Position numbers and translations under genes: made by a program. From Candidatus Gastranaerophilales bacterium (GTDB lineage: Bacteria > Cyanobacteriota > Vampirovibrionia > Gastranaerophilales > Gastranaerophilaceae), in the NCBI GenBank assembly GCA_944324305.1, contig CALUVV010000008.1, forward strand, positions 1 to 64,000: a stretch of 64,000 nucleotides of DNA, read 5' to 3'. This document shows, piece by piece, positions 15,928-31,939 of the stretch (positions are counted from its first letter, which is position 1; each line of letters starts with the position of its first letter). The notes beneath the pieces are model-generated. The model ran no database searches and was not told the DNA's origin. It worked only from the letters and a program-made list of their open reading frames with translations.

Positions 15928-18780
15928 TTATACTACGGAAGTATCCTTTTTAAACTGTGCATTATAAAGGGCTTTGTAAGCTCCGTTTTGTTCTTTTAGC
16001 AATTCGTCATGGGTGCCTATTTCAACAATTTCACCCTCATTTATTACAACAATTTTATCAGCATTCTGAATTGTAGATAATCTGTGAGCAATTACAAATA
16101 CTGTTTTATCCCGCATTAAATTTTCAATAGCCTTTTGTACTATAGCTTCTGCTTTATTGTCCAGAGCAGAAGTTGCCTCATCCAAAATTACGATAGGAGC
16201 ATTTTTAAGAAAAGCTCTTGCAATGGCAACCCTTTGTTTTTGCCCGCCAGACAAAAGTATTCCTCTTTCGCCTATCTGTGTATCAAGTCCGTTAGATAAA
16301 CCTGAAACAAATTCATCTAAGTAAGCCATTTTAACAGCCTTTGCCAATTCGTCAGCGGAAGCATTTTCATTACCGAGCATTATATTTTCTCTGATAGTTC
16401 CTGAAAATAAAAAATTATCTTGAAATACAATTGCAATATTCTGCCTTAGAGATTTTAGCGTATAATCCCTTATATCAATACCGTCAATACAGATTGTTCC
16501 TGATTTTATATCATAAAATCTTGGAATAAGACTGACAACAGTAGATTTACCCCCACCGGAATTTCCGACAAACGCAACTGTTTCACCGGAATTAACAGTT
16601 AAATTAATATTTTTTAAAACCGGTTTATTTTTTACATACTCAAAATTTACATCTCTGAACTCTATAAGATTAATATGTTCTAATTCAACAGCATCTGCTT
16701 TATCCTGAATTTTAGGATCGGCATTCAAGATAGAAAATACACGTTCAATTGCCAAAAATGAAAATTGAACCGAATTAAAATTATTCCCAAGATTTTTAAT
16801 GGGGGTATAAAGCATTATTAATGCAGTAATAAAAGAAACAAAATTTCCGCTAGTTATCTGCCCGGTTAAAATAAGATGGCTTCCATATCCTATAGCCAAG
16901 CCTATACCTACAGAAACAATTACATGCATCATAGGAGACAGCCAGGATGTTCTTTGAACCAATTTAATTTTTAAAGAAAATAAATTATCCAGTATATTTT
17001 TAAATTTATTTTCCTGAATTTTATCTAAATTATATGATGCTATAGTTTTGTTCCCTATAAAACTCTCATTATAAGAAGTTATTATTAATGACGAAACAGA
17101 TACTGATTTGTCAAGTACATCCTTAATTCTTTTTCTTATTTTTGTCAATGGCATAAAGGCGCATCCGAGAACAAAAATTGCGATAATAGCAAGCTGCCAG
17201 GAATTGTAAAATAACACACAGATCAGAGATATCGATGAAAACAGCCTGGAAACAAAAGTTTTCAGATTATCAAGAAAGCCGGCGCATGCCGCATCAGCAT
17301 CGTTATTAAACCTGAAGACAATATCACCTGATTTTTTCTTATCAAAATAAGCGGTTTCAAAAGTTAACATTTTTTTATATAAATCAAATTTTAAGTCATT
17401 AGTAATCTTAGTTCCTACCCAGGTATTCAAATAAGTTGCCCAATAATTTAAAACACCTTGAATTGAAGTAAAAGCAACAATAGCAAAAGGAATATACCAT
17501 GGCGAACTTGCAGATTTTTCGACCATTACCAAATCCATATAAGGTTTTAAAGATAAAGCTATTACTGCATCTAAGGAACCAATCGGAATACAAATTAGAA
17601 TAGCAAGTAATGCCCTGAAATAATACGGTTTAACATAAGGTAATATTTTTGAATAGTTTTCATAAACTTGAGTAGACTTGATGTACTCAAGAAAACTATC
17701 AGGTTCTGTATAATTTTTATTAATTACACCTGAAAAAGAAAGTAAATTATCTCCATCAGGCTTTAATCTTTCAAAATAATACGGACAATTTTTTAAACGA
17801 ACTATATACTTTTCATCAAAGTTATTCTTTATAATATTTACAACTTTCAAGGCAGCTGACGGAGATATAACAGTTTCGGCAAAATCAATAACTAAATCGA
17901 ATTTCCAGAAAAGAAATCTCTCACGAATTTCAATTGTAGAAAATTGACCGCATTCCAATATCTTAATAAACTGCCCGGTTTTATCGAGTTTAACTATCGG
18001 CTTATGATATTTTAACCAGTATTCATGCTCATTTACATGATGAAATTTCCAGAAAAGTTCATGTAATTCGCGGTAAGGAACAGCGTCTAAATCTTTATCC
18101 TTTCTCATTCGTTTCAAACAATATAAATCAAATCCTACAGGCAAATCTATTCCCCCGAACTCAAAACCGAGCAAATAGTTTTTATTTTGGACTGATAAAA
18201 TATTAGTTGTCTTAAAATCGCAGTGAGTACGAACCATCATAACTTCATCCATACGATTCAAACAGTCTCTGTACTTAATAAAATATTCATTATTCATTAA
18301 CAAATCACGAGAAAGCATATCATTCGGGCATCTTTCTTCTAAAATATTATTCATAATTTCATCTGCTTTATCCGGGGTTAATTTTATTTTAAATGCATTT
18401 TCATCATAAATTTTATTTAATAATATATCAAACGAAGTATCATTTAAGACTGCCCGCTGTGCATTCTCAATATATTTGTATAAAACAAAAACTACCCCGT
18501 CACATTCTCCTGATATTATAGGCATATTAACATAAAAGTATTTATGAAAAATACTGCTATTTTCAGTGATATTCATTACGGTTTCTTTTAAACGATATTT
18601 TTGAGCCTCAGAAAACGCCAAAGTTAACCAATATTTACATTTAGACAATTTATCAATGCAAATATAACCGACTTGTCTTTCAAAGTTATTTTTTATAGGC
18701 ATTTGACAAGAAACAGTCAAATCTGTTTTGAGTTTAATATTTATACAGTTTAATATTTTTTTCAACAAAAATTTTTTCAT
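15928..18780 (-). CDS. ABC exporter (MsbA-like) with N-terminal kinase-like domain
   Basis: A 950-residue protein. The C-terminal ~570 residues are a type-IV half-exporter. Membrane spans begin near residue 390. Walker A is GNSGGGKST, the signature is LSGGQKQR, Walker B is IVILDEATSALD, and the switch His is in VIAHRLST. This matches lipid/glycolipid flippases. The first ~370 residues are unusual for this family. They contain THCDFKTTNIL (His186, Asp188, Asn193), which fits the HxDxxxxN catalytic loop of aminoglycoside/choline-kinase-like folds, then LLGFEFGG and GFDLY. The expected metal Asp of 'DFE' is Gly205, so it may be a pseudokinase. It is last in the 30819-15928 operon. AAGGA precedes the ATG. 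Confidence 0.88.
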   Translation of the reverse strand: MKKFLLKKILNCINIKLKTDLTVSCQMPIKNNFERQVGYICIDKLSKCKYWLTLAFSEAQKYRLKETVMNITENSSIFHKYFYVNMPIISGECDGVVFVLYKYIENAQRAVLNDTSFDILLNKIYDENAFKIKLTPDKADEIMNNILEERCPNDMLSRDLLMNNEYFIKYRDCLNRMDEVMMVRTHCDFKTTNILSVQNKNYLLGFEFGGIDLPVGFDLYCLKRMRKDKDLDAVPYRELHELFWKFHHVNEHEYWLKYHKPIVKLDKTGQFIKILECGQFSTIEIRERFLFWKFDLVIDFAETVISPSAALKVVNIIKNNFDEKYIVRLKNCPYYFERLKPDGDNLLSFSGVINKNYTEPDSFLEYIKSTQVYENYSKILPYVKPYYFRALLAILICIPIGSLDAVIALSLKPYMDLVMVEKSASSPWYIPFAIVAFTSIQGVLNYWATYLNTWVGTKITNDLKFDLYKKMLTFETAYFDKKKSGDIVFRFNNDADAACAGFLDNLKTFVSRLFSSISLICVLFYNSWQLAIIAIFVLGCAFMPLTKIRKRIKDVLDKSVSVSSLIITSYNESFIGNKTIASYNLDKIQENKFKNILDNLFSLKIKLVQRTSWLSPMMHVIVSVGIGLAIGYGSHLILTGQITSGNFVSFITALIMLYTPIKNLGNNFNSVQFSFLAIERVFSILNADPKIQDKADAVELEHINLIEFRDVNFEYVKNKPVLKNINLTVNSGETVAFVGNSGGGKSTVVSLIPRFYDIKSGTICIDGIDIRDYTLKSLRQNIAIVFQDNFLFSGTIRENIMLGNENASADELAKAVKMAYLDEFVSGLSNGLDTQIGERGILLSGGQKQRVAIARAFLKNAPIVILDEATSALDNKAEAIVQKAIENLMRDKTVFVIAHRLSTIQNADKIVVINEGEIVEIGTHDELLKEQNGAYKALYNAQFKKDTSVV

Positions 18781-18821
18781 TTTGCAATCCTTAATTAAAG
18801 TTTAAATTAAGCTGAAGGAAG

Positions 18822-19952
18822 CTAAAAACTGCCCCCCCCCCGATTATCTGAAAACGAATTATTATTAAATAATTTTTTCAAATATATTTGAGCCGGCTTT
18901 TCAATAAAATGATAAGTAAACACACCAAAAAGTAAACAACTTGATAAAGCTAATAGAATTTGGCAGATTGGAAAATTTTCAACTAAATATATATGCTGTT
19001 TCCAATAGAAAAAATTAATAACACGAATAACAAACAAATGTGTTAAAAAAATAGAATATGTATATTTGCCTAATTCTTCCGACAATTTAGATTCCAATAT
19101 TTTTGACAAAAAGCCCCTTTTTAAAATAAAAAGAGAAAAAAGAACGATAAAATATAAAATCAATATTATATCATTATTGTAACTTAGCCTGTGGAATGTT
19201 AAATTATTGATTAAAAAGACAAAAAGATAAACTTCGAAAGCAGTATACACCAAAAAAGATTTAAAATTTGGTTTAAAATTATCTATTGAATATTTATATT
19301 CCTTATAAAGATTTGCGATGATAATCCCGCAGCCCATGCCTGCAAGCCCCCTGATTATCCCAAGATTAAAAATATATGAAACAGAATATATATGTCCGGC
19401 TATATGCCCTTTTCCTGCATGAACTAAAAAAGAATAACCAATTATAGACACCAGAATTATAAATAAATCTGTATATTTTTTCTCAAAGTGCTTAATTATA
19501 TAAAAATAAAATATCGAAACGGCTAATAACACAGAAACATACCAGGTGACTGCCATGCAGCCATGTTTTAAGGATAAGCCTATATTATTAATCATAAACA
19601 GAGATAGTAAATTTGAATAAAAATCGAATTTAACAATTCCCAGATATGAAATCATCCTATAAGCTATCCACAAAAAAAGAATTACAGGGAATAACCGAAT
19701 TACCTTTTTCTGTATAAACTCAATCACTGTAATTGATTTATTATAAGTCATCAATAAAAAAAAGCCTGCAATTATAAAAAAGAAATCTACACATGTTTGC
19801 CCTGAATGACCAATGGTTTTTCCTAAGAAGTTATAAATATTTGACTCTTGAGTTAAATGCAATAATACACTATCCTTGTTAAAAAAGTGGAACATAACAA
19901 TATCAAAAATCATTAAAAAACGTAAAAATTCAATATTTTTTATTCTCTCCAT
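18822..19952 (-). CDS. Acyltransferase family 3 membrane protein with poly-G tract at its 3' end
   Basis: A 376-residue multi-pass protein of the OafA/WecH acyltransferase-3 family. NIEFLRFLMIFDIVMFHFFN holds the conserved Arg and His near the first helix. It also has GHSGQTCVDFFFIIAGFFLL and about ten hydrophobic helices. These enzymes usually O-acylate surface glycans. The last residues (Arg-Gly-Gly-Gly-Ser-Phe) are encoded by a 10-G tract. Nine or eleven G would replace the last two residues by longer tails (about 12 or 9 residues). With nine G the new stop would sit within the ribosome-binding site of the ABC exporter gene. AAGGA precedes the start. Confidence 0.87.
   Translation of the reverse strand: MERIKNIEFLRFLMIFDIVMFHFFNKDSVLLHLTQESNIYNFLGKTIGHSGQTCVDFFFIIAGFFLLMTYNKSITVIEFIQKKVIRLFPVILFLWIAYRMISYLGIVKFDFYSNLLSLFMINNIGLSLKHGCMAVTWYVSVLLAVSIFYFYIIKHFEKKYTDLFIILVSIIGYSFLVHAGKGHIAGHIYSVSYIFNLGIIRGLAGMGCGIIIANLYKEYKYSIDNFKPNFKSFLVYTAFEVYLFVFLINNLTFHRLSYNNDIILILYFIVLFSLFILKRGFLSKILESKLSEELGKYTYSIFLTHLFVIRVINFFYWKQHIYLVENFPICQILLALSSCLLFGVFTYHFIEKPAQIYLKKLFNNNSFSDNRGGGSF
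18832..18841 (-). repeat. Poly-G tract (10 nt) at the end of the acyltransferase gene
   Basis: Ten C on the + strand; in the coding sense GATAATC-G10-CAGT. Second of four tracts with the shared TC-G10-C core. Confidence 0.9.
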
Positions 19953-19954
19953 AA

Positions 19955-21211
19955 TTACTTCCTTATCATAAATAATTGACCGCTGTTAAGATATATAGGA
20001 ATAAACATATCAGGGTTCTCATCTAAAAACTCGCAAACAGCCTTTTGGGCACCGATTAATGAAGGAGTATGCCCGTAATCTTCCGCAATAATAATACCGT
20101 TATGAACAATCTTATCTTTAACTTTATATAAAGCAGCTTTTACCGCATCATACATATCTACATCAATATTTGCAATACAAATCTCTGATATACATTCCGG
20201 CAAACTATCTGTTATAATATTTGCCTGTACAACAGAAGCATTATTATATTTTGAAAGTCTGGATTTAACCTCTTCAAAAGAAGTATCTTTATGAGTATTC
20301 TGCCATTGTGCATCCATTGAATTATAAGCTTCTTCATAGTCAAAACCTTTAAAAGTATCTATAAAATATGATTTTTTAGTAATATTTGCCTTTTTCATGT
20401 AATTTAAAACCGCGGAAGCAGAATCGCCTTTAAATGAGCCGATTTCTACATAATCACCACTCAAACTCTTACAAATTTCTAAAGCCTGAAATATATTTTC
20501 AAAATCTACGGGACAAAAATGCCAGTGATTATTATCAGATTCTTCCAAAAGGACTTTAAACGCTAATTCATTAGTATGAAAATATCTGGCAAGAGGAAAA
20601 GCCTGCCATAAAGGAAAATATTTTAGATTTAAATCTGTTAATTTTTTTACAGCATTAATTGCATTAAAATCATAATTATAAATCAATACAAACATGCAAT
20701 CATCATTTTGATAATTTTCAATCCGAGACAATTCAATAATATTATATTCCCTGGGAATATAGTCCAAATCTGTTAATATATATATTTTCTTATTAAATCT
20801 TTTTTGATAACCATTAATTCGTTGTCTAATGCTGGACAAACTGATTCTATTTTGAAAAATAGGATAAAATTTACGTGCTTTCATCTCCTCATAAAAATTA
20901 TAAATTTCTTGTTCTAACTGAAAATAATTTTCATTTGCAATATTATCTTCGATAAATTCTTTATTTAATTTCTGTCCGAGTTTAGATGTTTGAACTTCTA
21001 TGTCATCAAATTTTTGTTCAAAAGATTTTACTAATTTATTTATGCCAATTAATTGTTGTTTTATTGCAACCTGTTTTTTCTCATTCAGAAAAAACTGTGT
21101 TTCCAGAAATTTTGAAGTATTTCTAAACTTTAGTTTTATCCATAAAATAGTTATAATTTTATGGGTACTCTGGTTTTTCACTGAAAATATTTTCTGTAAG
21201 AATGCTTTCAC
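19955..21211 (-). CDS. TylF/MycF-like methyltransferase with coiled-coil N-terminal extension
   Basis: A 418-residue protein. The C-terminal ~190 residues match TylF/MycF-type SAM methyltransferases: GDYVEIGSFKGDSASAVL (SAM loop), YFIDTFKGFDYEE, and IANIDVDMYDAVKAAL with GIIIAEDYGHTPSLIGAQKA (metal and active-site acidic residues). Such enzymes O-methylate sugars. The N-terminus begins with a KIITILWIKLKFR segment, related to the C-terminal tail of the GT2 at 1179-2147, followed by a predicted coiled coil (residues ~45-95). The start is GTG with AAGGAG upstream. Eleven bases separate it from the aldolase-like gene. Confidence 0.83.
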   Translation of the reverse strand: MKAFLQKIFSVKNQSTHKIITILWIKLKFRNTSKFLETQFFLNEKKQVAIKQQLIGINKLVKSFEQKFDDIEVQTSKLGQKLNKEFIEDNIANENYFQLEQEIYNFYEEMKARKFYPIFQNRISLSSIRQRINGYQKRFNKKIYILTDLDYIPREYNIIELSRIENYQNDDCMFVLIYNYDFNAINAVKKLTDLNLKYFPLWQAFPLARYFHTNELAFKVLLEESDNNHWHFCPVDFENIFQALEICKSLSGDYVEIGSFKGDSASAVLNYMKKANITKKSYFIDTFKGFDYEEAYNSMDAQWQNTHKDTSFEEVKSRLSKYNNASVVQANIITDSLPECISEICIANIDVDMYDAVKAALYKVKDKIVHNGIIIAEDYGHTPSLIGAQKAVCEFLDENPDMFIPIYLNSGQLFMIRK

Positions 21212-21221
21212 AATTATCTCC

Positions 21222-22853
21222 TTAAATTTTTAATAATGCTTTATTATTTATTTGGTCAAACCGGCTTGATGTTACAAAATTCAATGTAATATCAGGATGC
21301 GTAATAAAAAAATCATTCAGCATTTCGCTAATATCTCTATTTAAATTTTTGCAATCATTTTCACTTAGCGTTGATTGTAAGATAAGGTCGTTATAGGATT
21401 CTTTTCCTGTTTCGTCATAGCCGTCAAATCCGGCTAAATTAATATTTTTTATCCCAATTTTATCTAACAGCCTTATTAACATAACTGTGGAATTATCAAA
21501 ATATTTCCATCCCAGCTTAGTCAGAGAGTTGTAATTAACCAAATATTCATTTTTTTCAGATAAAGTCTTGACATTTGAAACAACAATTTTAGGTGTATTA
21601 AAAAATTTACTGCCATTCATTGTTTTTGCATAATCAAATCTGACCGGATTAGAAAAAAACAGAAAATTTGTATCAATAATTTCTGGAATATGATTAACAC
21701 CTATTATTAACGGCTTCTTTGAAGAAATAAATTCAAATATTTTATTCTGCTCTGTTTTCACGGATTTTCCGGGGGCAATCAACAAAATATTTTTATCTGC
21801 CAATAAACTTTTTAATGAATTAAAACTTTCCTTATCATCAATTTTTTTATTCTGATAGTTTACATAAACTTCTTCTAATTTATCATAATTATATAATTTT
21901 CTTTCATTACGCGGAAGTGTTTCAAGTATAATTTTCATATCCTTATAATTTGTTTTGTGTGTATTTTGCAGATAAGCAATATTATTGACATGCGAGCCCA
22001 ATTGTCCTGCAATGCAGTAAGGTATGCTATACCCCCATTTATAATTCGATATAAAATTTTTCATATACAGATCAATGGTATCCATAATACAATTCAAATC
22101 GTAATTTTTATTAAATTTATTATTAACATAATTTGTAATTAGCTCGGTACAAGTATTACCTGCACCTCGCCCCATTCCGCATAAACTAGAATCTATAATT
22201 ACTGACCTGCCAGTTTCAAAAGCAAGTTTAGCAAACTCCATAGAAAGAGCAAATGATAGCTGAAGGTTATTATGAGAATGAAAACCTATTTTTATATTCT
22301 TATCCAGATTCTTGTCCAAAATCATGAAAATATGCTGAAGATCAGATGCATACATTACTCCGAAAGTATCAACAATAGATAAAGATTCCGGCATAACTTC
22401 ATTAGTTTTTTCGGCTAATTGAATTAACTCCAAATCCGAATAACTATATGTATTTGCCGCTTGAAGACATAAATTATAACCTTTTTCTTTAATTTTTTTT
22501 GAAAATTCTATTGCTTCCGTGAATTTTTCTTTCGGAAACACTTCTCTGACAGTATCAATTGAAGTCCCGTCATAATCCGAGAGATATTTTAAATCATATC
22601 TTCCGTAATCAATCATAGCAATATAAGATTTAGTTTTTTCCGCCGGCAAATAAGGAACAATATCTTCTGCGCGTCTATAATAAGTACTGCCGCTTTCGTG
22701 CGGTTTATCTTTTAACCAGCCGACTTCAATCATATCAATATTAGATTTTTCAAGATTTGCTATTATGCCCTTTATGGCATTATCCCCGAAATTTCCGTCT
22801 ACAATGTACGCCCCGTCGCGCAGAGTACAATCTAAAATATGAAAATTTTTCAT
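21222..22853 (-). CDS. DRE-TIM (HMG-CoA-lyase-like) aldolase domain fused to a DUF115-like domain
   Basis: A 543-residue protein. Residues 1 to about 300 form a DRE-TIM metallolyase barrel: LDCTLRDGAYIVDGNFG with the metal Asp and catalytic Arg, VDTFGVMYASD, GFHSHNNLQLSFALSM with the HxH metal ligands, and CGMGRGAGNTCTELI. Such barrels catalyse pyruvate or acetyl-CoA aldol chemistry (4-hydroxy-2-oxovalerate aldolase type). Residues ~350-543 form a second domain, NILLIAPGKSV ... IIGVNHIPEIIDTNFLFFSN, similar to the MptE/DUF115-like fold in the 23521-24537 product. It overlaps the cytidylyltransferase gene by 4 bases, so the two probably act in sequence on a sugar acid (inference). Confidence 0.8.
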   Translation of the reverse strand: MKNFHILDCTLRDGAYIVDGNFGDNAIKGIIANLEKSNIDMIEVGWLKDKPHESGSTYYRRAEDIVPYLPAEKTKSYIAMIDYGRYDLKYLSDYDGTSIDTVREVFPKEKFTEAIEFSKKIKEKGYNLCLQAANTYSYSDLELIQLAEKTNEVMPESLSIVDTFGVMYASDLQHIFMILDKNLDKNIKIGFHSHNNLQLSFALSMEFAKLAFETGRSVIIDSSLCGMGRGAGNTCTELITNYVNNKFNKNYDLNCIMDTIDLYMKNFISNYKWGYSIPYCIAGQLGSHVNNIAYLQNTHKTNYKDMKIILETLPRNERKLYNYDKLEEVYVNYQNKKIDDKESFNSLKSLLADKNILLIAPGKSVKTEQNKIFEFISSKKPLIIGVNHIPEIIDTNFLFFSNPVRFDYAKTMNGSKFFNTPKIVVSNVKTLSEKNEYLVNYNSLTKLGWKYFDNSTVMLIRLLDKIGIKNINLAGFDGYDETGKESYNDLILQSTLSENDCKNLNRDISEMLNDFFITHPDITLNFVTSSRFDQINNKALLKI

Positions 22854-23524
22854 GATTTTTCTCCTGCAAAATTATAAATTTGTTCAGCCATAATAAAGTC
22901 AAATTTATCATCTATATCTATAGCCTCTAATTTTGAAATTTCATAAAGTTTTGGATGTTTCCCGTAAACAAATTTCCATTTTGCCATATCTTTTGCCTTT
23001 GCAATAAAAAATCCGTTAGTAATGATATGCCAATCAGGCAGTTTTTGGGATGGAACGTGATTCTCTACAGAGAAATTAACCGGCTTTTCTTCATCAAAGA
23101 TATATTCCTTAAGTAATAACGCACTTACAACAGAATCAAAATTTTCATCTAAATTTAAAAATGTCTTTATTGCATTTTTATAGGATGAAACTTCTACTAA
23201 AGGGCATACACATGGTGCCCATATCAAAATATCTGTTTCTATGGTATTTGCAATAAATTCAACTACTTCATTGAAAGTTTTTGATTTTTCATCGCAATAA
23301 ATATCAGGTCTTCTTTGAAAAGAAACATTCTCTTGTATTGCCATTTCAATCATATGTTCACAATCGGTAGACACTACAATTTCATCAATTTCCGCAATTT
23401 GTTTTAATTGTCTTATTTTATGGACAAGCAGATTTGAATCCGCAAATTTTAAAATATTCTTATTCTCCAGCCTTTTGCTGCCTTTCCTGACCGGGATTAC
23501 AGCAGTAATTTTACGATTTTTCAT
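22850..23524 (-). CDS. NeuA-like cytidylyltransferase (CMP-sugar-acid synthase family)
   Basis: A 224-residue protein with the NeuA/KdsB-family start ITAVIPVRKGSKRLENKN (CTP-binding Arg and Lys), then VSTDCEHMIEMA, RRPDIYCDEKSKTFNEVVE and ILIWAPCVCPLVEVSSYKNA. This family activates 3-deoxy-ulosonic acids as CMP-sugars. The usual 'QPTSP' is APCVCP here, so the substrate may be atypical. It overlaps both neighbours by 4 bases (ATGA type), which ties it to the aldolase-like gene downstream and the DUF115-like gene upstream. Confidence 0.83.
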   Translation of the reverse strand: MKNRKITAVIPVRKGSKRLENKNILKFADSNLLVHKIRQLKQIAEIDEIVVSTDCEHMIEMAIQENVSFQRRPDIYCDEKSKTFNEVVEFIANTIETDILIWAPCVCPLVEVSSYKNAIKTFLNLDENFDSVVSALLLKEYIFDEEKPVNFSVENHVPSQKLPDWHIITNGFFIAKAKDMAKWKFVYGKHPKLYEISKLEAIDIDDKFDFIMAEQIYNFAGEKS

Positions 23525-24537
23525 ACATTAACCTCATTTATAATATCTTGCAAATATTCAATATCACTTACATCTTTAAATAACGCAGCTTCGGCTTTAA
23601 CATAACTTTCTGTATAAACATCTCTGAATAAGCCTCTAAGCCCGACAGGATTAACTGAAATAATTTCAACATCAGGATAATAAATTTCCGCAAAATGCTT
23701 TAATAAAGGATAACTTCTTAATGTTTCATTAAGTCCGGCCCACATCGGCTGGTGTATTGAAGAATTATAATAGCCGTTCATAGAACAGTCACATCCTACC
23801 AGAAAAATCCTTTTTGGATGTGTCCATAAAGCAAATTGAATTGCACTGATGGCAATAGACCCTCCATTTTTAAATGGTAATACATCTAAATTTTCAACAA
23901 AATCAGGCATATAAGAATCAATATAATATTTATATGAATTATGCTTATCTGTTATACAGTTCGGAGTATTCCAGGTTTTAAATTTAGTAGAAAGATATCG
24001 CCCGTAAAATTTAACAAAATTTTTATCACTTATTTTCTCAATATATTCAGCTGTAATATCAGAATAGTGAGCTAAAAAATAATAATCAAAAGTTATTCCA
24101 TTAAACTCAAAAGCTCTATTCATTCCGATATTTACAGTATTTTTCATATTTTCATAAAAATTAAGAGAAGGTCCTGTCCCGACTATTACAACATCTTTTC
24201 CCGTGTTTATATTTTTAAACTGAGGGAAAACACGTGAATGTAAATTTGATACAGCATTTGCCATCCTTGTTTCATTTATAATTGTACTCTTTAATTCATT
24301 AATTACTGTATTCTTTATATTATCTGCTATTTCTGTTATATCCAGTATTTTTCGGGAAAATATTTGCAAACCGCAAAAATAAACTTTTTTCACGTTCGGA
24401 CATTTTTTGATTTTTAAAAGTCCGTATAAATATTTAATTTTAGACCAGCGTCCTTCCTGCTTTTTATGGAATAATTTTATTCCTAATAGCCGGATTATAC
24501 ATTGATTATTACCTTTTATTTTTGAATATATTTTCAA
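23521..24537 (-). CDS. DUF115/MptE-like (possible GT42-like) glycosyltransferase
   Basis: A 338-residue protein. The N-terminal ~60 residues carry two copies of a short 'h-h-x-GI/GL-x-h-F-x-K' module (LLGIKLFHKK and CGLQIFSRK). The main domain has VVIVGTGPSLNFYENM, IGMNRAFEFNGITFDYYFLA, NGGSIAISAIQFALW and RIFLVGCDCSMNGYY. This matches the MptE-like/DUF115 fold also found in Maf flagellin glycosyltransferases, and is reminiscent of GT42 sialyltransferases. Next to a NeuA-like gene it could be the transferase for the CMP-activated sugar (inference). Start TTG at 24537 with GGGGAGG 8 bases upstream. Confidence 0.68.
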   Translation of the reverse strand: MKIYSKIKGNNQCIIRLLGIKLFHKKQEGRWSKIKYLYGLLKIKKCPNVKKVYFCGLQIFSRKILDITEIADNIKNTVINELKSTIINETRMANAVSNLHSRVFPQFKNINTGKDVVIVGTGPSLNFYENMKNTVNIGMNRAFEFNGITFDYYFLAHYSDITAEYIEKISDKNFVKFYGRYLSTKFKTWNTPNCITDKHNSYKYYIDSYMPDFVENLDVLPFKNGGSIAISAIQFALWTHPKRIFLVGCDCSMNGYYNSSIHQPMWAGLNETLRSYPLLKHFAEIYYPDVEIISVNPVGLRGLFRDVYTESYVKAEAALFKDVSDIEYLQDIINEVNV

Positions 24538-24539
24538 CT

Positions 24540-25622
24540 TTAAAACCTCCCCGAAATATTTTCAATAAGTAATTCTTCTCTATTGTCCGGATATTCAAAA
24601 ATTAAATTTTTATCCGCATAGGGATATAAAATTAAAGAATGGGCTTTTTTAAATTTATCTGAAGGCATATTATTTATTAGCATGGGCGTATAAATAACAT
24701 GCATCGGCTTTTTAAGTTCAAGCAATGTTTCCATAAAGCCGCTTCTCATACCTATAATGCCTTTAGAATATGAAGCGGCAATCTTTGCTTCGGTTATTGA
24801 ATAATCTTTTGAATTGTAAAAAATATCGTAACCTTTTTTTCTTAAATCTGATGTTAAGCTGTTCCAAAAAGATTTATTTAAAGAACGTATAGATAAAGCA
24901 TCAGGAGAAATAAATATAAAATTATCAATATTTAATCCATCCTTTTTCAGTTTATCCAAAACTTTAATTTTCCGGTTACTGTCAGGAGAAAATTTATTTG
25001 TAACATAATCAGGATTAAAACCAAATAAATCTTGAACTCTTTTTACATAATGTACAGGATTATCAGTATTTTTATATTCATCCATTAATCCATATATAAA
25101 ATCTTTATTTATATAAATAAAAATGTTTTTATCATTAAATGAATAAAAATCCTTATTAACGGCAAAAGATAAATAGTCCCAATTTAGATTAATTTTCTTA
25201 TAATTTATAAGCGGATTATATTGTTTAAATAAATCACCGAAATTTTCTCTTAATCCTACAAAATAAGTATTATCATAAGACAAATTATTCCCTTGCATAT
25301 ATTGCTCAAGATATAAATTTAATAAATACGTTTCTCCCAATCCTGAACGTATCATCACAATATTTTTAATCTCCGGCGGTACTTGAGCAATAATATGCTT
25401 TAAGCATTCATCTTTAATAATTTCTCTTATATTTTCGAACGGAAAAAGTTCTACAATATTATTCATATTATTGTCTTTTTTATACTTAGAAATTCTAAAA
25501 AAGGGCTGCTTAAAAAGTTTAAGCTCAAAATATATATTTGAAAACTTATATATTGAAATTAAATCAAATAAAATGTTTATCTTTAATTCCTGACGGACTT
25601 TACGGAATGTTAATAAGCTCAT
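24540..25622 (-). CDS. GT9/heptosyltransferase-like glycosyltransferase (paralogue 3)
   Basis: A 360-residue protein, third of three tandem relatives. The conserved C-terminal half has LNIDNFIFISPDALSIRSL, then SFWNSLTSDLRKKGYDIFYN, then AASYSKGIIGMRSGFMETLL. The order 'substrate loop, hydrophobic strand, RSG-x-x-E' resembles GT-B heptosyltransferase-like enzymes. The N-terminus differs strongly from the other two copies. A GAGG site precedes the ATG. Family assignment by pattern only. Confidence 0.65.
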   Translation of the reverse strand: MSLLTFRKVRQELKINILFDLISIYKFSNIYFELKLFKQPFFRISKYKKDNNMNNIVELFPFENIREIIKDECLKHIIAQVPPEIKNIVMIRSGLGETYLLNLYLEQYMQGNNLSYDNTYFVGLRENFGDLFKQYNPLINYKKINLNWDYLSFAVNKDFYSFNDKNIFIYINKDFIYGLMDEYKNTDNPVHYVKRVQDLFGFNPDYVTNKFSPDSNRKIKVLDKLKKDGLNIDNFIFISPDALSIRSLNKSFWNSLTSDLRKKGYDIFYNSKDYSITEAKIAASYSKGIIGMRSGFMETLLELKKPMHVIYTPMLINNMPSDKFKKAHSLILYPYADKNLIFEYPDNREELLIENISGRF

Positions 25623-26761
25623 AATAACACCTCTGTAATCATTTGTTTTAATTGGTCATTACTATAATCTTCAATACAATATTCGGTGATATTGTAAGAT
25701 GTATTCGGAAGCTTTTTAAGAGAAAAACTGTTCATAACTTTCTTCGCAGGAATTGATTTTAAAACTCCGCGGTCTTTAAAATCCGAATATAAACAGACCA
25801 GCGGAATATTATTCAGAGTAGATAAAGGTTCCAAAATTCCGCTTCTTAACCCTATAATTCCTTTGCTTAAAGATGCAAGACAGTATGCTTCCTGTATTGT
25901 CAGGAAGCAAGTTTTGGCAGAACCAAACAACGGAGACAATTTTATTACATTCATAAAAACATCTGTCCCGTTTTCAAAAAAGCAATTTATCAAATCAGGC
26001 CAAAAATAACTATCCAAATCAATATTAGATTGGGATTCCGGACATATAAAGATAAAGTTATCTATATTTAAGTTTATTTTTTTTGCTTTATCTAAAGCTG
26101 ATTGTTTTACTTGTTCGGAAATTAACGGTTTTTGAGAATTTATCTCACTGTTTTTAATACAAACTGTCTTGAGGATTTCGTCATAATAGTGGATATCAGT
26201 ACCTTTAATAATTTGTTTTTCAAGGTTAATAAAATGTTTCATTGGTAAAATATTGTAAAAATTAACATTTTTGTATTGTTCTTGAAATATATTGTCATAT
26301 CCGCGTAATTTTTCTAACCCCGGAATATAAAAGTATGGAATTTCAGGACACATCATATTAAACAAATCAACATGATAAGGTTTTGTAGCTATTAAAAGAG
26401 GTTTTTTCCCTTTATTAAAGGAATTAAAAAATGTCAAAAATAAATATGTTTCACCGCTGCAATTAAAATTAATGTAAATATCGGTATATTTTCCATCTAT
26501 TTTATCTAATATTTTGTTGTAAAGTTTGTGACTTGACTTTTTTATAAAAAACGGAATACCCAAAATATAAAATTTCTCATACCCCTTATTAATCTTTGTT
26601 TTAAGAAGTACTATACCGCAAAAACGAAATTCGAAATTGAACATTTCAATAAAGTATTTTGTTTTAAATATTCCGAACAAAAAACTTTTTTTTACCGCAT
26701 TATTTTCAGTTTTAACATTATATAATTTATTCAATAAGTTTAGCATATTCCGCGCTTTCAT
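25619..26761 (-). CDS. GT9/heptosyltransferase-like glycosyltransferase (paralogue 2)
   Basis: A 380-residue protein. The C-terminal half has LNIDNFIFICPESQSNIDLD, FWPDLINCFFENGTDVFMN and YCLASLSKGIIGLRSGILEPL, alignable with both neighbours. Residues 15-75 contain three short repeats of 'F/I-GI-x-x' type (FLFGIF, FCGIVLL, ILGIPFFIKK). The ATG at 26761 lies inside the upstream gene (35-base overlap) and has no clear ribosome site, so ATG 26746 is an alternative start. Likely a sugar transferase in the operon; donor unknown. Confidence 0.65.
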   Translation of the reverse strand: MKARNMLNLLNKLYNVKTENNAVKKSFLFGIFKTKYFIEMFNFEFRFCGIVLLKTKINKGYEKFYILGIPFFIKKSSHKLYNKILDKIDGKYTDIYINFNCSGETYLFLTFFNSFNKGKKPLLIATKPYHVDLFNMMCPEIPYFYIPGLEKLRGYDNIFQEQYKNVNFYNILPMKHFINLEKQIIKGTDIHYYDEILKTVCIKNSEINSQKPLISEQVKQSALDKAKKINLNIDNFIFICPESQSNIDLDSYFWPDLINCFFENGTDVFMNVIKLSPLFGSAKTCFLTIQEAYCLASLSKGIIGLRSGILEPLSTLNNIPLVCLYSDFKDRGVLKSIPAKKVMNSFSLKKLPNTSYNITEYCIEDYSNDQLKQMITEVLL

Positions 26762-27959
26762 ATTTTTTATTTGTAATATTTTTGATTAAATTATCGCAAT
26801 TTGAAGTTTCATATATATATTCAGATATTTTTGCCGATGAAACAAAAGGCAGTTTATTCAGACAAAAGCCCTCTTTAACCTGCTGAACCGACATATCATT
26901 AAAACATCTTCTGTTTTTGAATTTATTATATAAAACATCCGTCGGAACCCCTGCTTCCAACAGAAATTCTGAAAAACCGCTTCTCAATGATATTATTTTT
27001 TTTGCCAAACAAGCTAATGAAAAAGCTTCTGAATATGACAAATAGCAGCTCTTAAAACTGCCGCCCTTTAAATTTACACTTTTATCCGCTAAATTTACAA
27101 ATACATCAATTCCTGATTTTTTAAATTCTTCAATCAACTTTTCCCAGAAAAAATTATCCAGAAGCATGCAAGATCTGGCCTCGGGAGCTATATAAACAAA
27201 GGCGGACAAATTCAGACCTAACGCCTCTGCTTTCGATAAAGCAGAATTTTTACATTCATCCGGCACAGATATTTTATTAATTAGTAATTCTGATGGATTT
27301 AAATTAAAATGATTAAGCATAGAGTTAAAATAATGCACCGAACCAGGCGGATTTTCCTTTATAGCAGTTTCTATATTTATAAAATATTCATGAGGGAAAA
27401 TTTGAAAAAATCTTTGCCTTCCGATTTGGAAAAAATCTCCTTTGACATTAACGTCCAAAGACTTTACATAAACAGAAGGAATATTCGGACAAATCAAATT
27501 TATCATTTCCGAATGATATTCCTTGGTTGCAACAAGAAGAGGGGTTTTACTGTTATTTTTCTTTAAAAGAATATTTAAAACATAAGTTAAAAACAGATAA
27601 ATTTCACCGCTGTTTGCATTTAGTATATATATATCATCATATTTTTTATCAAAATATTTTAAATATCCAGTTTTAAATGCTTCAATTGCTGAAATTTTTA
27701 TTATTTTTCTGTTAAATACGTACCAGTATTGATTATTACCGTCTTCAATGCGTTTAAATACAGATTTGCCAAAAATTTTTATTTCTTTTTCGACATGGTA
27801 ATCATAAATATCTTTAACTTTATAAGTAGTTATAATTCCTTGTAAGAAATACTGATATCTTTTCGTAGTCATACAGTTAAATATCTGTTCGAAAACTGTT
27901 ATTCCAAACAGTTTTGAAGTTTTACGATATTTTTTCTTCACATAGTCGTATATTTTCAC
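26727..27959 (-). CDS. GT9/heptosyltransferase-like glycosyltransferase (paralogue 1)
   Basis: A 410-residue protein. Its first ~100 residues contain repeated short segments (KLFGITVF, FLQGIITTY, KIFGKSVFKRI). The C-terminal half has LNLSAFVYIAPEARSCMLLD, FFWEKLIEEFKKSGIDVFVN and FSLACLAKKIISLRSGFSEFL. It shares this block with the two genes downstream, so all three arose by tandem duplication. It starts with GTG at 27959, overlapping the KdsD stop as TAGTG, with GGGGAG upstream. Confidence 0.66.
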   Translation of the reverse strand: MKIYDYVKKKYRKTSKLFGITVFEQIFNCMTTKRYQYFLQGIITTYKVKDIYDYHVEKEIKIFGKSVFKRIEDGNNQYWYVFNRKIIKISAIEAFKTGYLKYFDKKYDDIYILNANSGEIYLFLTYVLNILLKKNNSKTPLLVATKEYHSEMINLICPNIPSVYVKSLDVNVKGDFFQIGRQRFFQIFPHEYFINIETAIKENPPGSVHYFNSMLNHFNLNPSELLINKISVPDECKNSALSKAEALGLNLSAFVYIAPEARSCMLLDNFFWEKLIEEFKKSGIDVFVNLADKSVNLKGGSFKSCYLSYSEAFSLACLAKKIISLRSGFSEFLLEAGVPTDVLYNKFKNRRCFNDMSVQQVKEGFCLNKLPFVSSAKISEYIYETSNCDNLIKNITNKKYESAEYAKLIE

Positions 27960-28948
27960 TATGCTACTCCCCGGCTCAATAAATCATGAATATGAACAAC
28001 ACCTGCAGGTTTATTATTTTCAATTACAAATATATTTGTAATTTTTTTATCATTCATTATTTTTAAGACTTCAGAAGCCATTAGATCTTTTGTAACCGTT
28101 TTGGGATTTTTTGTCATCAAATCTACGGCTTTTTTGTCAAAAATTTCTGCAGACATGCATCTGCGCAAGTCACCATCTGTAAGCATTCCAGTCAGGCAGC
28201 CGTCAGAATTTATAAAACCAACACAGCCTAAACGTTTTGAAGTCATTTCCAATAAAACGTGCTGCATATCGGAATTTTCATCCAGTAACGGAATATCTGC
28301 ACCTGTATGCATTAAATCGGACACTCTTTGCAATATAGAGCCTAATTTACCTCCGGGATGCCTTGCATTAAAGTCCGCTTTTGTAAAACCTTTTCTTTCA
28401 ATTAAGCAAGCTGTTAAAATATCTCCGAGAACAAGTGTAGCTGTAGTTGAGCTTGTTGGTGCTAGACCTAAGGGACAGGCTTCACCGTTATCAGGCAGCG
28501 TTAACACGACATCACCGGCTTTACCTAAAGAACTATACGGATTTTTAGTAATACATATTAATTTAATTCCAAATCTCTTACAATAGTTTAAAATATCTAT
28601 TAATTCACGAGATTCACCGCTGTTAGATATTGCAATTACAACATCGGTATCTGCAATCATTCCTAAATCGCCGTGGCTGGCTTCAGCAGGATGAACAAAA
28701 AACGCAGAAGTTCCTGTAGAAGCTAAAGATGCAGCAATTTTTCTGCCGATATGTCCTGATTTTCCCATACCTGTAACAACAATTCTCCCTTCAGTATTCT
28801 GCATAATATCCAGAGCAGCAGTTAATGAAGAATTCAAATTTTCACGAAGCATTAATAAAGTATTAAGCTCAGAGTCTATTGTACGCATAGCACAATTTTT
28901 ATCAGAAATTTGTTGTATATCCTCTTTATTTTCAAGTAGATTTGGCAT
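27959..28948 (-). CDS. kdsD: KdsD/KpsF-type arabinose-5-phosphate isomerase
   Basis: A 329-residue sugar isomerase that interconverts ribulose 5-phosphate and arabinose 5-phosphate. The N-terminal SIS domain has IVVTGMGKSGHIGRKIAASL, FVHPAEASHGDLGMI and VVIAISNSGESRELIDIL. Two C-terminal CBS motifs run from about residue 205 to 329 (MLTDGDLRRCM, KKITNIFVIENNKPAGVVHI). Length and order are those of KdsD/KpsF/GutQ. No KdsA or KdsB is recognisable nearby, so the arabinose 5-phosphate may feed another sugar. It overlaps the HAD gene by 1 base (TAATG) with GGAG upstream. Confidence 0.92.
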   Translation of the reverse strand: MPNLLENKEDIQQISDKNCAMRTIDSELNTLLMLRENLNSSLTAALDIMQNTEGRIVVTGMGKSGHIGRKIAASLASTGTSAFFVHPAEASHGDLGMIADTDVVIAISNSGESRELIDILNYCKRFGIKLICITKNPYSSLGKAGDVVLTLPDNGEACPLGLAPTSSTTATLVLGDILTACLIERKGFTKADFNARHPGGKLGSILQRVSDLMHTGADIPLLDENSDMQHVLLEMTSKRLGCVGFINSDGCLTGMLTDGDLRRCMSAEIFDKKAVDLMTKNPKTVTKDLMASEVLKIMNDKKITNIFVIENNKPAGVVHIHDLLSRGVA

Positions 28949-29316
28949 TAAAGCTCCTTATTAACTTTATATTCAATACTAAATTTCTCATTCCTATCTT
29001 TATTTACTGCATAGGCAGTATTTAATCCGCTTGGTTTTCTGTCGTTAACAAGTATTCTCTCACCGAAAGGCATATCACTAATCAGATAATCATAACGAAT
29101 ATTGTTTGACTTTAAAAACTCTTTAAGATTATCAAGATATTCACCTTTTCGTGCAGTTAACAAAATAACCTTGTCTTCCTGCGGCAAATTCGAGAAGAAA
29201 TCTTTGACACCTTCAAGCAAAGTATCACTGCCGTCAATTTTGTATCCGTTATGCTTTACAATTGTACCGTCAACGTCAAGTATCCATGTCTTAGACAAAG
29301 GTGAAAATTCAAACAC
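28948..29316 (-). CDS. Small HAD phosphatase, capsule-biosynthesis type
   Basis: A 122-residue minimal HAD hydrolase with motif I WILDVDGTIVKHNG (Asp14, Asp16), motif II VILLTARKGEY, and motif IV region YLISDMPFGERILVNDRKPSG. Capless HADs of this length occur as 'capsular biosynthesis phosphatases' and GmhB/KdsC-like enzymes. The GTG start at 29316 immediately follows the stop of the nucleotidyltransferase/kinase gene. Together with the flanking isomerase and kinase-nucleotidyltransferase, it could complete a four-step route to an NDP-sugar (inference). Confidence 0.82.
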   Translation of the reverse strand: MFEFSPLSKTWILDVDGTIVKHNGYKIDGSDTLLEGVKDFFSNLPQEDKVILLTARKGEYLDNLKEFLKSNNIRYDYLISDMPFGERILVNDRKPSGLNTAYAVNKDRNEKFSIEYKVNKEL

Positions 29317-30819
29317 TTACAGCACCTCACCTAACTTAACAATTCCGTTATAGAAAGCACCGCATACAGAATCGTAATCTTCCCAAGCATAAGTCGTTAA
29401 TGAGAGCCAGATGACAGCATGAAGTAATTTAATTTTTTGTTTATCAACATAGGGCAAAGAGTCAAAGAAAAATTCTTCCATATCTGCCCAGTTATTAGGT
29501 TTTATAGCGAATTCAACATCTTTGTCTCTGATATCAAGCGTAAATTTCTTCCTGTTAAACTGGTCATATTCACCTTTAATTGAATAATACAGCTTAGCCC
29601 AATCATAATCTTCATCACCGTAAAGCTTTGTTTTACCGAAATATCCTCTCGGATCAATTAATATGGGTTTCATACTAAATGTATCAAACATTAAATTTGA
29701 AAACGTGCAATCGCCATGAATTAATGAAAAATGTTTCGGATAAATGTTTTTAACAGCTTGCATCAGCTCATCCTTATAAAAAAACACATTCCTGTAATAC
29801 TGCCCGTTAATTTTTATAAACTCTTTATCGGCAAACGGAATAAGCTTTTCAATTTTCGAAAGTCTGTCAAAAGTCTTATTAACATAATTATCTTCTACAT
29901 CCTGAATATTAACAGGGATATCAGTTTCGAGAGAATGTAATTCTTTTAAAGCTGAAATTAATCTGCGAAGAACAGCTCTTTTTTGAGTTTTAGTAAGGCA
30001 GTCATACTCATAAATATTTTTCCCTTGAACACGTTTCATCGTAAGCGGTTCATATTCATAAATTTCAGGAATATACTCAAAACCGAGTTTTTTAACATGT
30101 TTATACCATCCGATTTCATCAACCGCAATTTTTTGCCCCTGTTCATTTATTCCGCGCTTAACCACGACGTCATCTTTAAATTCCATAGAGTTAAACGGCC
30201 TGCATCTCGGTGTAGAATCATTGTTATCGGAATAAGAAATTAATGTCCCGATTTCCTTGGAACCGTAAAGATTTAACTCTTTAAATTTTATATCTTGATG
30301 CTGTAACCAGCCGACAAGCGCTCCTTCTTCAGGGATTTCTCTTAAAAAAGATTTATTCTCAAAAATAAAAAGCCCCGCAACACCGCTATCTTTGGAAGGA
30401 GTTTTTTCAAACTTATTATCAATGTAAGACCAACGGCACTCAAAATCTTTAGAAATTCCAATATAATTTCCGCTAATTTCAGGGATTTTAAAGTTGTCAG
30501 AAAGAATAAGATCACACCACATTATCATAAACGGTTCATCATCCGAAAAAGCCGCAATTGCCTCTTTTATACCCGATACAGTGCCCTTTTTTGAAGCTTT
30601 TAGTATCTTAAATTTATATTGAGAAGCAAAAACATTTAAATATTTCTCCAATACATCAGTTTTGTAATCAGAAATTATAGTAAATTCGGCATCACTAAAC
30701 TTTTGAAACGCATAAAATATTATAGGTAAATTATTAACAGGAACAAGGCATTTAGGTTTATTTCTTGTCAGCCCTTCCAATCGTGTTCCTTTACCGCCAG
30801 CCTGAATTATGACCTTCAT
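29317..30819 (-). CDS. Bifunctional sugar nucleotidyltransferase / APH-type kinase fusion
   Basis: A 500-residue protein. Residues 1-230 are a nucleotidyltransferase (IIQAGGKGTRLEGLTRNKPK, NNLPIIFYAFQKF, IMWCDLILSD). Residues ~240-490 are an aminoglycoside/choline-kinase-like domain with catalytic loop HGDCTFSNLMFD (His368, Asp370, Asn375) and metal site LIDPRGYFG (Asp389). Fusion suggests one sugar or alcohol is phosphorylated and then activated. It is the first gene of the operon running to 15928, and its ATG lies 41 bases from the first repeat of the putative invertible switch. GGAG precedes the ATG. Confidence 0.87.
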   Translation of the reverse strand: MKVIIQAGGKGTRLEGLTRNKPKCLVPVNNLPIIFYAFQKFSDAEFTIISDYKTDVLEKYLNVFASQYKFKILKASKKGTVSGIKEAIAAFSDDEPFMIMWCDLILSDNFKIPEISGNYIGISKDFECRWSYIDNKFEKTPSKDSGVAGLFIFENKSFLREIPEEGALVGWLQHQDIKFKELNLYGSKEIGTLISYSDNNDSTPRCRPFNSMEFKDDVVVKRGINEQGQKIAVDEIGWYKHVKKLGFEYIPEIYEYEPLTMKRVQGKNIYEYDCLTKTQKRAVLRRLISALKELHSLETDIPVNIQDVEDNYVNKTFDRLSKIEKLIPFADKEFIKINGQYYRNVFFYKDELMQAVKNIYPKHFSLIHGDCTFSNLMFDTFSMKPILIDPRGYFGKTKLYGDEDYDWAKLYYSIKGEYDQFNRKKFTLDIRDKDVEFAIKPNNWADMEEFFFDSLPYVDKQKIKLLHAVIWLSLTTYAWEDYDSVCGAFYNGIVKLGEVL

Positions 30820-30860: not shown

Positions 30861-30884
30861 ACAACAAAATAAATAAAATGTAGT
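30861..30884 (+). repeat. Switch repeat copy A
   Basis: A 24-base copy of the form ACAACA-N12-TGTAGT. It is identical over all 24 bases to the inverted copy C and in direct orientation with copy B, 39 bases to its right. Confidence 0.85.
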
Positions 30885-30898
30885 TGATAGTCAATAGA

Positions 30899-30924
30899 TA
30901 CAACAGAATAAATAAAATGTAGTG
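30899..30924 (+). repeat. Switch repeat copy B (left inverted-repeat arm)
   Basis: A 26-base copy, TACAACA-N12-TGTAGTG. It matches the reverse complement of copy C at 25 of 26 positions. The ends ACAACA and TGTAGT form an imperfect dyad, as expected of a two-monomer recombinase core site. Confidence 0.85.
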
Positions 30925-31053
30925 ATATTAGTAAAAGGAAATAATCCCGCTTTAGCCATTGATATTCAATACAAGTTTGACAAAAAATTATATTAATATT
31001 TGTTCATATAACTTGCAAAATGAACTATAATTATATTAATATAACAACGGATA
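30925..31053. other. Putative invertible segment carrying promoter sequences
   Basis: These 129 bases lie between inverted copies B and C and encode no protein. They hold a good + strand promoter (31003-31031), a minus-strand TATAAT (30987-30992) with only a weak -35, an isolated TTGACA at 30977, and a 13-base direct repeat (30987-30999 and 31030-31042). The segment sits between the recombinase gene and the first gene of the polysaccharide operon. Inversion is inferred from architecture and has not been observed. Confidence 0.6.
31003..31031 (+). promoter_or_regulatory. Promoter inside the putative invertible segment
   Basis: TTCATA (31003-31008), 17 bases, TATAAT (31026-31031). As drawn it points right, into the 3' end of the recombinase gene in antisense. 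After inversion it would point left toward the operon starting at 30819. Confidence 0.55.
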
Positions 31054-31079
31054 CACTACATTTTATTTATTTTGTTGTA
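31054..31079 (-). repeat. Switch repeat copy C (right inverted-repeat arm)
   Basis: Inverted copy of A and B, ending 12 bases before the recombinase stop codon at 31091. Confidence 0.85.
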
Positions 31080-31090
31080 AGTTTTTTTCA

Positions 31091-31633
31091 CTATAAAATA
31101 AAATTTGTATAGCTTTCATCGATTTTATCTTGCTCTATTCCGATATATCGCAAAGTAATCTGGGGGGCTGAGTGGTTAAATATCTTTTGCAGCATTACTA
31201 CATCTTTATACATTTTATAATAATGATATCCAAACGTTTTACGCAGTGTATGTGTGCCGATTTTTTCCTCTAAACCTGCCCTTTCACATACATTATTAAT
31301 AATTCGGTATGCTGCTATACGGTCAAGTCTGTTTTTAAATATAGTTTTAAATAGGGGGTCATTGGGATTTTTACCTTTAGTATATTTTGCAAGCATCGGT
31401 TTTAATTTGGAATTAATAGGAATTTTTTTGAATTTGCCTGTTTTTTTCTCTTTTAATTGGATATAATTTTTTCCTTTTACATCACCTATGTTTAATGCAA
31501 GAATATCAGAAATTCTTAAACCGCAATTGGTTCCGATTGTAAACAGAACTAAGTCGCGCATGCTTTGAGCTGCTAAAATTTTCTCAATCTTTCTTAAATC
31601 TGACATTTTTCTGATTGGTTCAACTGTTGTCAT
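31091..31633 (-). CDS. Catalytic-domain-only tyrosine recombinase (FimB/Mpi-like size)
   Basis: From ATG 31633 the protein has 180 residues; AAGGA lies 8 bases upstream, and a longer reading from 31678 has no ribosome site. The full tyrosine-recombinase set is visible: Arg40 in GLRISDIL, a Lys in the KEKKTGKFK hairpin, His128 and Arg131 in HTLRKTFG, His154 in FNHSAP, and nucleophile Tyr163 in LRYIG. There is no separate N-terminal core-binding domain, as in FimB/FimE and other small recombinases. No phage genes flank it. It ends beside an inverted repeat that frames a promoter segment, which suggests a DNA-inversion role rather than prophage integration. Confidence 0.9.
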   Translation of the reverse strand: MTTVEPIRKMSDLRKIEKILAAQSMRDLVLFTIGTNCGLRISDILALNIGDVKGKNYIQLKEKKTGKFKKIPINSKLKPMLAKYTKGKNPNDPLFKTIFKNRLDRIAAYRIINNVCERAGLEEKIGTHTLRKTFGYHYYKMYKDVVMLQKIFNHSAPQITLRYIGIEQDKIDESYTNFIL

Positions 31634-31759
31634 AAAAATCATCCTTTCATAAATTATTAAGCTCAGATTTGTATACATATGAGCTTATACATCACACCAG
31701 AATAAAAAATAAACATGAATATTTTTATCAGAATTTTAAATTATGACAACAAAAAAATA

Positions 31760-31832
31760 TGCCGCAACTCGGAATTGAACCAAGGACACAGGGATTTTCA
31801 GTCCCTTGCTCTACCAACTGAGCTATTGCGGC
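31760..31832 (-). tRNA. tRNA-Phe (GAA)
   Basis: The reverse complement folds into a full cloverleaf: acceptor GCCGCAA/TTGCGGC, anticodon stem AGGGA/TCCCT with loop CTGAAAA (anticodon GAA), T-arm CTTGG-TTCAATT-CCGAG, discriminator A. CCA is not encoded. It is followed by a T-rich run in its own direction. Confidence 0.95.
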
Positions 31833-31939
31833 ATATTCTTTATTTTATTTTCAAATTTTTATAAACTTCTTGAGAAGGTTGAGGCAATGAAATATTCTTT
31901 GGAGTAAATGGTGTTAAATATTTAATTGCCACGTTTTTT

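Follow-up and report, generated by a model that had tools for sequence, protein, structure and literature searches.

The locus described here, from a gut bacterium of the Gastranaerophilales, a non-photosynthetic group related to the cyanobacteria, is very probably a phase-variable promoter switch placed in front of a 12-gene operon that looks like one for a surface glycan. It lies within the window, that is, the whole stretch of 64,000 nucleotides that was analysed (Table 1). In the mechanism that we propose, the adjacent 180-aa tyrosine recombinase would bind sites of 24-26 bp and would join site R with its inverted partner L1, or sometimes with L2. Recombination would then flip a segment of 170 bp (or 129 bp) that is expected to carry the operon promoter, and by this flipping the cells would alternate between an expressed and a silent operon; the extra site L2 may allow a third state. 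The flip in this species would be catalysed by the adjacent recombinase, the operon promoter would lie in the segment, and the surface glycan would be expected to change on flipping. The architecture is of a known kind. The surprises are a lineage-wide family of such loci and a degenerate second recombinase in a quarter of the sibling switches. An inversion had been proposed for the locus from the letters of the window, and this reading is now strongly supported by repeat enrichment in related loci, a natural inversion, the junctions in sister species and the co-directional glycan genes downstream.

Table 1. Coordinates of the features of the switch locus in the window.
Feature	Position	Strand	Remarks
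12-gene operon, read away from the switch	15928-30819	-	
Site L1, operon-proximal arm	30861-30884	+	Perfect inverted match to R
Proposed invertible segment L1-R, 170 bp	30885-31054		Holds L2 and presumably the promoter; proposed from the perfect 24-bp arms and the G001 junction
Site L2, direct duplicate of L1	30899-30924	+	May pair with R instead of L1 (129-bp segment)
Highest-scoring sigma-70-like match within the segment, TTCATA-17-TATAAT, 10/12	31003-31031	+	Directed away from the operon; no better than chance
Site R, inverted copy on the recombinase side	31054-31079	-	
Tyrosine recombinase, 180 aa	31091-31633	-	PF00589, 7.7e-24
tRNA-Phe, 5' of the recombinase, flank outside the switch	31759-31833	-	Same neighbour in two sister species

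The sequence-only reading had reported a 24-26 bp site present twice in direct and once in inverted orientation, and this was confirmed in number, orientation and place. The site has three matches in the 64-kb window against 0.00 expected from shuffles. L2 follows L1 in direct orientation after a step of 39 bp, with one mismatch in 24, while L1 and R make a perfect 24-bp inverted pair 170 bp apart (30861/31055). This pair is the sole perfect inverted repeat of at least 20 bp within 600 bp in the 64 kb, and none was found in 30 shuffles. The pair that had been stressed before, L2/R, does exist (26 bp at 96%, 129 bp apart, 30899/31054), but the perfect one is L1/R. As in an inverton, the inverted repeats bound a non-coding segment between the recombinase and the operon. 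Dispersed target sites of the kind that characterizes a master invertase were absent, since the 2.2-Mb genome has no further copy of the site at up to 3 mismatches, and none was present in the viral contigs scanned.

The recombinase (labelled RecA in our analysis, which is not the repair protein of that name) ends at 31091, 11 bases from R. Its listed reading frame has 195 aa and begins at 31678, which likely overstates the protein: the start at 31633, giving 180 aa, is backed by the relatives and by an AAGGA motif, and the conserved MTTVEPIR begins there. Both the length and the full catalytic set that had been claimed for it held, as the PF00589 domain is accompanied by all six residues (R40, K64, H128, R131, H154 and Y163), which are invariant or nearly so across 15 relatives. 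An AF2 model matches the folds of XerA, XerH and XerD, so that fold and R-K-H-R-H-Y set both place the protein among the tyrosine recombinases.

On the other side, 41 bases separate L1 from the start of the operon at 30819, from which 12 genes run on the same strand to 15928, in agreement with the earlier description of a polysaccharide-type operon of this size at this distance from the repeat. The first gene encodes an NTP-transferase/APH protein (29317-30819). The others include HAD-like, KpsF/KdsD sugar-phosphate isomerase, MptE-like, CTP_transf_3 (cytidylyltransferase) and HMGL-like proteins, a TylF-type methyltransferase, an acyltransferase and an MsbA-like ABC exporter, and three have no assigned family. 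Judged by these families, the operon looks like a surface-glycan set.

Two sister species (G001 and G013) have an orthologous locus, in which the recombinase, the first operon gene and the neighbouring tRNA-Phe all recur. In G001 (CAG:439), the sequence that lies between L1 and L2 in the window sits beside the recombinase, and 24 of 27 positions of the junction agree with the product predicted for L1 x R, compared to 16 of 28 for the window orientation. In G013, the end of the segment that is next to the recombinase in the window lies on the operon side instead (43/58 versus 35/61). These are junctions from other species, on contigs that break inside or beside the switch, and neither spans the whole flipped segment. 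The G001 junction shows that L1 x R is a pair used in nature, so that the segment is 170 bp long and includes L2. Because of this junction and the perfect match of its arms, we regard 30861/31055 (170 bp) as more likely to be the recombining pair than 30899/31054 (129 bp). It is possible, though rather unlikely in our estimation, that within a working switch the main pair is L2 x R (129 bp), with L1 a mere duplicate, or that the switch is graded with three states. The 26 bp of L2 and R at 96% would permit this, sibling segments can hold a middle site, and in Bacteroides fragilis several inverted repeats before the operon of Tsr19 grade its expression (PMC4747536). Such arrangements fit poorly with a G001 junction that is an L1 x R product and with the single site that G013 has beside its operon. 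The contig ends C21 and C24 of G013 share the junction GTGTATAGAT; a mixed orientation within that assembly is not claimed, as a longer repeat could explain it. As a side observation, the locus L042 (FR900442.1), recorded as Fusobacterium sp. CAG:439, carries the orthologous Gastranaerophilales locus, and the name looks wrong.

Inverted repeats are common beside the relatives of this recombinase. Of 86 non-redundant related loci, 41 had a repeat matching at 19 or more of 22 positions within 420 bp on the 3' side of the recombinase, compared to 0 of 430 shuffles, 1 of 80 upstream stretches and 0 of 57 stretches further downstream. The repeats differ between loci, but a dyad (for example ACATTTT-N4-AAAATGT) is often retained, which is what Xer-like sites would be expected to show. 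A clear inverted repeat was missing from 35 of the 83 loci with enough downstream sequence, including one paralog in the window genome. The first downstream gene is co-directional in all 48 repeat-bearing loci, compared to 21 of the 35 without a repeat, and the genes downstream of sibling switches are mostly of glycan type, with glycosyltransferases and sugar-nucleotide enzymes dominating. The sequence-only reading had advised a search of relatives for both orientations, and both were found. Between L080 and L081/L083 the flanks are nearly identical and align without a break, and between TTCTTTATAGAATTTATATTGTGTATAGAA and its inverted partner the segment is turned around precisely, which makes it an inversion that has occurred in nature. 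Together with the opposite junctions of G001 and G013, it shows by comparison between relatives that both orientations occur in nature. Segments in opposite orientation also occur in the more distant pairs L016/L046, L113/L121 and L065/L070. In the public assemblies, contig ends within 131 bp of the recombinase number 11 on its 3' side versus 1 on its 5' side. The 3' breaks often fall inside the repeat or at its inner edge, which is the behaviour expected of a short-read assembler where both orientations coexist.

It could be supposed that the switch was once active and is now locked, with the repeats and the recombinase remaining after flipping had ceased. A single orientation was seen in the window genome, and some loci of the family look decayed, having no repeat and, in 14 of the 35, a reversed downstream gene. 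However, L1 and R still match each other at every one of 24 bp, and no catalytic residue has been lost. The opposite orientation in the sister species also implies that flipping continued after or near their split, and we therefore consider a locked switch very unlikely.

The origin of the recombinase bears on another explanation. Its close relatives come from Candidatus Gastranaerophilales records or from gut metagenome bins that group with them, and among 116 genomes sampled evenly across the phylum, 39 of 50 Gastranaerophilaceae genomes had the recombinase family versus 0 of 66 others. The nearest relatives found outside the lineage are short integrases of Firmicutes phages, 180 aa long and at most 51% identical, and the recombinase matches the PHROG 216 integrases at 1.6e-57. 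A phage origin of the family is thus likely. These integrases, from Streptococcus and Clostridioides phages, share length and sequence family with the recombinase; unlike it, they lack strong 3' inverted repeats, as none of the 66 phage-type relatives below 60% identity had one at 19/22 or better. The same kinship, together with the tRNA-Phe just upstream, could mean that a mobile element or prophage beside a tRNA gene left the recombinase behind, and that the repeats are old attachment or excision sites and no invertible switch. We think this extremely improbable. No phage genes were seen around the recombinase, and the arrangement recurs next to glycan operons at many chromosomal positions, with segments flipped between relatives and with repeats that the phage relatives do not have. 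The key pair is moreover inverted, and its recombination therefore gives inversion, not excision.

Returning to the promoter switch, the state of the present copy is less clear than its architecture. The promoter-like sequences reported earlier in the segment are there, six in number, but they are not clearly above the 3.5 +/- 2.1 found in shuffles. Sigma-70 scoring over 49 segments likewise gave no excess versus shuffles (mean z 0.06), and promoter direction by this consensus was dropped as evidence. The earlier suggestion that this copy is OFF rests on the best match, which does point away from the operon but is at the level of chance. As no promoter of the window segment stands above chance, an OFF state is a weak guess.

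In the sibling switches, an extended -10 motif, TTTRTGNTANNNT, was found in 36 of 47 segments (1.5 expected), at a density of 5.1 per kb compared to 0.07 per kb in the operons, and in 38 of 43 cases the next site follows it after 9-37 bp. Its direction varies, being toward the operon in some loci and toward the recombinase in others, and it is opposite between L080 and L081. The motif was found after the fact, and held-out loci were barely enriched (4/14 with at most one mismatch, 1.65 expected), and because of this weakness the state of the window, ON or OFF, was not judged by it. The window segment itself has no TTTRTGNTANNNT; its nearest copies have two mismatches, which is reached in shuffles with P of about 0.65-0.7. 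Three sites, one of them in the middle, were observed in L080, L064, L065, L086, L110 and other segments of 270-308 bp. Such loci often have two promoter motifs and possibly more than two states.

In 12 of the 48 sibling switches, the genes beyond the switch begin with one for a divergent recombinase homolog, RecB, an arrangement seen at none of the 35 loci that lack clear repeats. It is found in L120 (6846-7373), L086 (2018-2542), L061, L064, L070, L075, L084, L096, L097, L035 and G010 (C37:76-600), and as a fragment in L099. None of the 11 full-length copies has the whole catalytic set. All 11 have lost the histidine of HxxR, 9 lack the first arginine, and 7 have phenylalanine in place of the tyrosine. 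Nevertheless, RecB keeps the recombinase fold in the predicted structure (pLDDT 90), and it appears to be under purifying selection, with dN/dS of about 0.16-0.38 in the closest pairs, many pairs being near saturation at silent sites. In L120, the operon behind RecB is the NTP-transferase operon also present in the window, with a first enzyme 77% identical, and in G010 RecB directly precedes the gene orthologous to the first operon gene of the window. RecB was sought in the window's own genome and was absent there.

Because it is the first gene of the switched operon, RecB would be made only in the ON state, and we suggest that it may act as an ON-state feedback factor. Built-in feedback of this type, through a degenerate second recombinase in some switched operons, would be new. 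Tentatively, and with somewhat more doubt than conviction, we propose for the Gastranaerophilaceae that lineage-specific, self-contained switches, copied repeatedly, diversify surface glycans and adhesin-like proteins. In this proposal, RecB, present in a quarter of the clear switches, is made only when the switch is ON and feeds back on flipping, and the window locus has lost RecB or never had it. If the switch reading is right, these gut bacteria, common but for the most part uncultured, change their surface in the way known from Bacteroides, with many private switches per lineage.

Small tyrosine recombinases that act in promoter inversion are known from fimS, where FimB and FimE control a surface structure. 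In Escherichia coli ipuS/hyxS, a small tyrosine recombinase also adjoins a promoter inversion controlling a surface structure (PMC6083910). The window operon is of glycan type, unlike these systems, which serve fimbriae or autotransporters. The curated models of tyrosine-type DNA invertases (FimB/FimE type) match only weakly: PRK09871 and PRK09870 scored 35.8 and 28.6 bits, far below their cut-offs of 222 and 221, and the 35.8 bits, given for NF007371, go with an E-value of 5.6e-9. Mpi of B. fragilis, which the sequence-only reading had taken as a model, is less suitable, since it is a serine recombinase acting on many distant sites (PMC4747536). It resembles the present case in inverting promoters before polysaccharide loci, but the window has a tyrosine recombinase (PF00589), not a serine recombinase, and a single local set of sites. 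The better comparison from Bacteroides, and the closest in architecture, is Tsr19/IVp-I of B. fragilis. There, the tyrosine recombinase Tsr19/BF2766 lies immediately upstream of the invertible promoter IVp-I, which controls an exopolysaccharide operon, and expression falls as the number of inverted repeats between promoter and operon rises; Tsr19 also inverts a distant promoter (PMC4747536). Both systems have a tyrosine recombinase adjoining several repeats before a polysaccharide operon. They differ in that the window comes from another phylum and its site is unique in the genome, and in that the link of inversion to expression was tested for Tsr19, whereas our case is built on sequence comparison. 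The literature searched, mostly outside subscription papers, held no description of phase variation by DNA inversion in Gastranaerophilales or Melainabacteria, and large inverton surveys beyond this literature may have touched these genomes.

Some minor observations concern further copies of the family. The paralog C6:21254 of the window genome has no clear inverted repeat and is a probable relic. Another paralog there, C7:29533 (G000:C7, L013:9509-14045), marks a second switch-like locus and has a recombinase 53% identical and similar inverted repeats, which precede a 1254-aa surface protein with Chlam_PMP repeats. The sister genome G025 has about ten copies of the recombinase family, which suggests many independent switches in one cell.
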